A DNA stretch of 64,000 nucleotides from positions 310,001 through 374,000 of the forward strand of contig NZ_OZ026465.1 in NCBI RefSeq assembly GCF_964019845.1. The letters are read 5' to 3'. Of this stretch, positions 29,025-29,889 are shown piece after piece. Origin of the DNA: Spiroplasma endosymbiont of Labia minor (GTDB lineage Bacteria; Bacillota_I; Bacilli_A; Mycoplasmatales; Mycoplasmataceae). The translations under genes and the position numbers were made by a program. How positions within the stretch are numbered: the first letter of the stretch is position 1; each line of letters begins with the position of its first letter. The notes under the pieces are model-generated. The model saw nothing but the letters and a program-made list of their open reading frames with translations. It searched no databases and was not told where the DNA came from.

Positions 29025-29038
29025 TTCTGCATGCAGAA
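29025..29038. promoter_or_regulatory. 14-bp palindrome upstream of the Panacea-like gene
   Basis: TTCTGCATGCAGAA is a perfect dyad flanked by ATATAT-type repeats, 28 bp before the start codon. It is GC-richer than its surroundings. A candidate operator; nothing else in the gap explains it. Confidence 0.45.
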
Positions 29039-29066
29039 TATATTTATTTTATAGTAAGGAAAAATT

Positions 29067-29889
29067 TTGAAAGCAAGAATACAATTTTTTATAATTGAAA
29101 GATTAAAATTTTGGAAACTATGAATTGTTTACATATTTCTCTTAATTTTTGGGCTAGTCTATTCTTCTATAGAAACTATTAACAATTCATCAAATTTGAA
29201 TATTTCAAATTTGGGCGAAGCATTAATGAATTATTGACAATTTTTTGGACCAATAATGATTTTTGGTTTACTTACGCAGAGGAATACTTTGTTGAGTGAG
29301 AGAAAAGAAGTGATTATAATGAAAAAAGAAAAATTAATCAAAAAAATTAATGCTGAAATTTCTTTAATGGATAATTCTGAGTATGAAATAGAAAACGATG
29401 TTTTGTTGGCGTTTTATATAATAAAATTTTATAATGAAAAAAATATTTTTACTTTTTTAAATAATAACTTAAGAATTCAAAAACTTGTTTATTTTGCTTA
29501 TTGCATGTATTATGCAATTAACAAAAAGGAATTAATGCGAAGATCAAAAGTTTAAACATTGACGTTTGGGACCTGTAAATGAATCTCTTTATTATGATTT
29601 AAAAGAGCTTTATTTTGGCGATGGTTTTGCTGATGTAGAATCAGAAAAACTAGAGCAGTATCTTAAAAATAAATATAAAAAAGATAATTTGTCATTAAAA
29701 TATGATATTAATTATAGTATTTTAGAAGAAATTTTAATGGAATTAGATAAATATGGAACTTTTGATTTAGTTGAAAAATCACATAGGACTAAACCATGAT
29801 TAGATTCAAAAGATTCTGAAGAAATAGATAATGACTTAATTAAAGATTACTTTAAAGATTTTAGTTTTGATAAATTAAAAGAATTATAA
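29067..29889 (+). pseudogene. Panacea (SocA/DUF4065)-domain gene with membrane N-terminus, frameshifted
   Basis: From a TTG start (TAAGGAAAA upstream) the frame encodes two hydrophobic spans (about 19-39 and 59-71), then a Panacea start: LAFYIIKFYNEKN and LRIQKLVYFAYCMYYA. At 29538 one extra base moves the rest into another frame, where QKFKHWRLGPVNESLYYDL continues the domain to TAA 29887. The family's conserved W-GP-V motif is therefore only reachable by shifting frame. Panacea domains serve as antitoxins against varied toxins. ATG 29319 with GAAGTGAT could instead start a separate antitoxin gene behind a small membrane gene. Confidence 0.75.

Follow-up and report, generated by a model that had tools for sequence, protein, structure and literature searches.

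A broken Panacea gene in probable conjugative-element DNA

We analysed a 64-kb window (the whole stretch of DNA examined, G000:C1:310001-374000) of the 984-kb single-contig genome of the Spiroplasma endosymbiont of Labia minor, a mollicute that uses genetic code 4 (TGA = Trp). At 29319-29889 on the forward strand this window carries a Panacea (SocA-like, PF13274) gene whose frame is broken once. The gene is preceded on the same strand by the truncated 5' end of a membrane-protein gene (29067-29318), which runs in frame into Panacea, and is followed by a conserved leader RNA of conjugative-element operons (29898-29990, forward strand) and the remnant of a virB4/traE gene (29991-31377, forward strand).

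The first frame is open from a TTG at 29067 to the TAA at 29555 and encodes a hydrophobic N-terminus followed, in the same frame, by the first half of the Panacea domain. Only the next frame is open through the second half, from 29536 to the TAA at 29889, confirming the original prediction that this half is reached only by a change of frame after a first half lying in the frame of the membrane part. Since the last stop of the next frame occupies 29533-29535 and the stop of the first frame occupies 29553-29555, the break falls within 29536-29555 (forward strand), after the helix that ends in ...INKKEL and before the conserved strand ...W.lGPV, so that Panacea is not one uninterrupted gene at this locus. 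Panacea also has its own ATG at 29319, preceded by the Shine-Dalgarno-like AAAAGAAGTGAT, which matches the Shine-Dalgarno consensus at 10 of 12 bases and is spaced as in the ribosome-binding site of gpsB.

The identification as Panacea, also part of that prediction, was borne out by a profile search of the joined frames (29319-29889) against PF13274 (SocA_Panacea), which scored 44.0 bits over profile positions 1-112 of 113 against a cut-off of 25.7. The C-terminal half alone scored 33.6 bits, and the first-frame half alone gave no Pfam score. As the joined match extends over the whole profile, the two halves constitute one domain with a frame broken once. In an alignment with 11 mollicute relatives, the joined read-through retained all 10 invariant residues, three before the break and seven after it, and the conserved residues L..QK...F, W.xGPV and LV..sH...W were all present. 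An AlphaFold2 model of the read-through, built with 48 relatives, was confident, with a mean predicted local distance difference test score of 89.5; the broken protein was read through solely for the searches and this one fold. A PDB sequence search returned no match, and the top match in a fold search with the model, chain B of a DarTG complex (E 0.044, template-modelling score 0.41), was too weak for use. Genome contigs searched with the joined single sequence, without a profile, yielded no relatives, and a DNA search revealed no duplicate of the whole Panacea locus elsewhere in the same genome. The broken gene is in itself an ordinary finding.

The membrane part derives from an unrelated gene

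The upstream part begins at the TTG with an AAGGA ribosome-binding site. By the Kyte-Doolittle scale its first hydrophobic span (residues 13-39) is strong, with values up to 2.06, but the second (about residues 56-69) is weak, so that only the first of the two spans originally described stands out clearly. A search of relatives with the joined protein identified, in addition to Panacea genes, a second place in the same genome, at 36314-36487, that matches the membrane part only. This match is the N-terminus of a 625-residue, multi-span membrane protein (G000:C1:36302-38176), and the homology of the membrane part covers residues 5-63 of that protein, with 25 identities in 56 ungapped aligned residues and a score of 151, compared with at most 55 in 500 shuffles. 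DNA differences from this paralogue at first, second and third codon positions numbered 28, 14 and 31, respectively; as the fewest fall at second positions, the membrane part once coded for a protein of the 625-residue type. It is the leftover of the first ~65 residues of such a gene, whereas the paralogue has several more spans and a large loop. A reverse search across 79 genomes found the membrane part only at the window locus and at 36302-38176. The 625-residue protein had no significant match in Pfam, NCBIfam or PHROGs. Its 625-codon gene (L025:3303-5180) shows no obvious start codon and has a stop just before the conserved part, and several broken-looking open frames of surface-protein type lie downstream of it.

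The original prediction had considered a toxin-antitoxin fusion or two adjacent genes. On such a reading, the two-span part would be a PanT-like membrane toxin, fused to or paired with a Panacea antitoxin. Small membrane peptides are among the verified PanT toxins (PMC8832971), and the membrane part and Panacea do share one frame. However, the part belongs to the family of the 625-residue protein, Panacea has a separate start, and the partner proteins seen in relatives lie downstream of Panacea and look soluble. Moreover, none of the 160 Panacea relatives carries the membrane part; two of the 160 have a hydrophobic stretch in frame upstream of Panacea, both unrelated to it. A membrane toxin is thus very unlikely, and a fusion was rejected on the basis of the paralogue search and the separate ancestry of the two halves. 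The nearest relative, G031, likewise has a hydrophobic stretch in frame upstream of Panacea, but there it runs through intergenic terminator-like sequence. In AT-rich DNA, an in-frame hydrophobic extension of this kind is a trap for domain reading.

The gene lies in a 4.4-kb insertion

Comparison with seven related genomes showed that the Panacea locus occupies an insertion. Judged by which genes they carry and how these are arranged, the relatives are Spiroplasma-like. In these relatives the order, with gene names assigned from sequences, is der, gpsA, HU gene, a dnaD-like gene, recU (reverse), gpsB, about 0.4 kb, cinA, recA, rny and ffh. The distance between gpsB and cinA, about 0.4 kb in all seven, is 4.75 kb here, where cinA starts at 33671. 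The inserted 4.4 kb, absent from the seven genomes, is bordered on the left by an intact gpsB (DivIVA family; 28588-28920, forward strand) and on the right by the class B RNase P RNA gene rnpB (33392-33740, forward strand). It contains the Panacea locus, the virB4 remnant, a D-lactate dehydrogenase-like gene (31688-32692, forward strand) and a mollicute-type lipoprotein gene (32776-33243, forward strand).

Aligned with a 1054-residue VirB4 from a different Spiroplasma conjugative element, the virB4 remnant runs through three frames, with two frameshifts, and ends at about residue 490, the C-terminal half being gone. A conjugative element with an intact virB4 is present elsewhere in the same genome, around 455-475 kb. 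Because Panacea sits within the insertion beside this decayed virB4, it most likely arrived with a conjugative element that has since decayed. The expected virB4 start codon at 29991-29993 is ATA; the corresponding codon in G041 is ATC, and that virB4 is also in pieces.

Just outside the insertion, the otherwise conserved recU (Holliday-junction resolvase; 27131-27613, reverse strand) is interrupted by a single in-frame TAA, so that fresh inactivation, or error in the local sequence, extends beyond the insertion. The dnaD-like gene that adjoins recU in the relatives was not found in the window.

The frame break probably reflects decay

The original prediction left two explanations for the break, decay or a programmed shift. 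We compared the locus with 160 Panacea relatives from genome and viral contigs (for the genome-contig search with alignment A1, the best 80 of 157). All 160 cover the domain in a single frame, and alignment A1 likewise shows its Spiroplasma members unbroken at the corresponding place. With every relative intact and the neighbouring virB4 broken likewise, decay is the supported reading, and the frame break fits the decay seen in virB4.

A programmed +1 frameshift that yields full-length protein on demand is scarcely credible. The sequence of both halves is conserved, as such a shift would have it, but the break itself is conserved in no relative, and no recognisable slippery pattern occurs in 29536-29555 (29535-29555 was inspected by eye, with no statistical score). 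The known bacterial case of +1 frameshifting, prfB, requires a stop codon in frame, classically UGA, and UGA encodes Trp here. The read-through also contains a surplus residue at the junction, with 27 residues between the invariant Lys and Trp that flank the break compared with 26 in 42 of 48 relatives. As the read-through is one residue longer at this point, the lesion is more than a mere one-base shift. The one extra base proposed earlier, at 29538, is only frame arithmetic and leaves the surplus residue aside.

Alternatively, the break could be a sequencing or assembly error, with Panacea really intact, either alone from the ATG at 29319 or behind the membrane part. The lesion is single in 570 bp with every invariant residue kept, and the lone stop in the nearby recU could likewise reflect base-call error or fresh decay. 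On the other hand, the break is not located at a long homopolymer, a single miscalled base would not fully explain the extra residue, and the adjoining virB4 has decayed beyond what error would produce. We thus consider an error improbable. The tempting story of a fusion or a programmed frameshift is closed off, and the locus illustrates how an in-frame leftover gene start can mimic a new domain architecture.

Panacea in relatives and its candidate partner

In mollicute relatives, Panacea is often followed directly by a protein of 110-135 residues belonging to one diverged family (alignment A3; L026:8652-9059, L028:6033-6407, L030:6526-6912, L031:6514-6849 and L032:6616-7095). These downstream partners look soluble, share the pattern ...R.G...R..G.L..NIF... 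and had nothing significant in Pfam, NCBIfam or PHROGs. Among 60 genomes searched, the family occurs in four: in G022 (five copies), G031 and G032 it is always beside Panacea, and G009 has one weak match. By this association, the family, as yet unnamed, is a likely toxin candidate for mollicute Panacea, and a concrete one, every copy found in the 60 genomes lying beside Panacea bar that weak match.

The partner family is absent from the source genome. Furthermore, no toxin gene adjoins Panacea in the window: the upstream part is the start of the unrelated membrane gene, there is no open reading frame between Panacea and the virB4 leader, and the promoter box of that leader starts within 10 bp of the Panacea stop. 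With no partner and with the leader directly after its stop, the gene is an orphan as well as broken.

Compared with the PanA/SocA Panacea antitoxins (PF13274; Kurata et al. 2022, PMC8832971; NCBIfam NF047745 SocA), the window gene shares the whole domain (44 bits), the invariant residues and the association with mobile DNA, and differs in its broken frame, its missing adjacent toxin gene and the unrelated membrane-gene start in frame upstream; the protein falls far below the NF047745 equivalog cut-off (42 of 190 bits). The Panacea genes of a Spiroplasma citri plasmid and other Spiroplasma (for example, WP_071937180.1 on NZ_CP046373.1; loci L026-L032) have the same domain at 25-36% identity, a mobile-element context and the same genetic code. 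By contrast, the Spiroplasma genes in alignment A1 have open frames, and most of the near-complete ones have a small partner gene downstream. On the S. citri plasmid, a closely spaced pair of genes with SocA domains lies at NZ_CP046373.1 4259-5935 (L304); the annotation gives the second as a short fragment.

Collectively, these findings suggest that the locus is very probably a dead, orphan antitoxin-type gene. In this model, an integrative conjugative element (ICE) would have carried in a PanA/SocA-like gene as cargo, and would since have shrunk to the 4.4 kb that now separate gpsB from rnpB. The toxins neutralised by PanA proteins are highly diverse and are encoded by adjacent genes (PMC8832971); the product of the intact gene would have bound and neutralised a neighbouring toxin in the same way. 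Panacea would then recently have lost its reading frame, with no toxin partner remaining, and most likely no longer functions. A rearrangement would have placed the remaining 5' end of the other gene upstream, where it happens to share the frame, with Panacea retaining its own ribosome-binding site. Three points weigh against this model. The Panacea frame holds one lesion in 570 bp, which is fresh or could be a sequence error; the link between Panacea and the ICE rests on adjacency to virB4 and the virB4 leader; and an antitoxin function is putative for mollicute Panacea genes in general.

A leader RNA shared by conjugative-element operons

The part of the neighbourhood of greatest interest is the leader RNA, beside which the Panacea finding is minor. 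A DNA search of the genome with the locus revealed that a 111-bp stretch (window 29885-29995) is 91% identical to a place in the other element where no Panacea gene lies, and a stretch of this type also stands before virB4 in two other species. A covariance model built from five copies, which match by construction, detected 20 copies at E <= 0.01 in six of 99 genomes (seven in G047, five in G055, four in G041, two in the source genome G000, and one each in G017 and G036), those outside the window including L082:17351-17449 and L285-L303. Up to seven copies occur in one conjugative element, before its operons. In the G047 element, leaders precede virB4, a multi-span transfer-type gene, a small-gene operon and an operon with a MobL relaxase and a coupling protein.

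Each copy has a TATAAT-like box, then a hairpin with a U-run (an intrinsic terminator), then a segment able to pair with the 5' arm of the hairpin instead; the window copy also includes the ribosome-binding site of the next gene. The hairpin and U-run are present in all 16 aligned copies, at -4.3 to -21.5 kcal/mol. For the window copy, the alternative, antiterminator pairing is predicted at -21.8 kcal/mol versus -8.6 for the terminator. Across the 16 copies, the 12 pairs of the antiterminator give 192 cells, 188 of them paired. In two copies, both bases of one pair have changed, and substitutions elsewhere leave G-U pairs; given the kinship of the copies, this amounts to few independent events. 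Inspection of the predicted fold by eye indicates that the downstream segment of some copies is also able to pair with the ribosome-binding site. A conserved leader peptide was considered and rejected, the length of the open reading frame varying between copies (also read by eye).

Rfam contained no match to the leader at E values up to 1, no relevant paper emerged from a literature search, and the pattern did not occur in the viral contigs; the window leader appears to belong to an undescribed family. We consider it probable that this ~100-nt family coordinates the switching of operons in Spiroplasma conjugative elements: as each operon is headed by the same promoter box and by a terminator with a 5' arm able to pair downstream instead, a single signal acting in trans could activate the entire transfer module through antitermination. 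This offers a testable model of how mollicute conjugative elements may hold their transfer operons off and then switch them on together. The conAn processive antitermination systems of Gram-positive conjugation operons (PMC8955417) offer a functional analogy only, being likewise RNA elements at the head of conjugation operons that act on terminators. The Spiroplasma leader differs as a ~100-nt terminator/antiterminator switch repeated before several operons.

Other features of the window

A 14-bp perfect palindrome, TTCTGCATGCAGAA, lies at 29025-29038, 28 bp before the TTG at 29067. Its presence and position agree with the original prediction, but the operator role proposed for it was rejected: perfect palindromes of at least 14 bp with at least six G/C are expected 0.8 times per 64 kb and one was seen, which is chance level, and the genome contains no second perfect copy. 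Elsewhere in the window, a thiamine pyrophosphate (TPP) riboswitch was detected at 5589-5681 with 61.9 bits, above the gathering threshold of 54.3.
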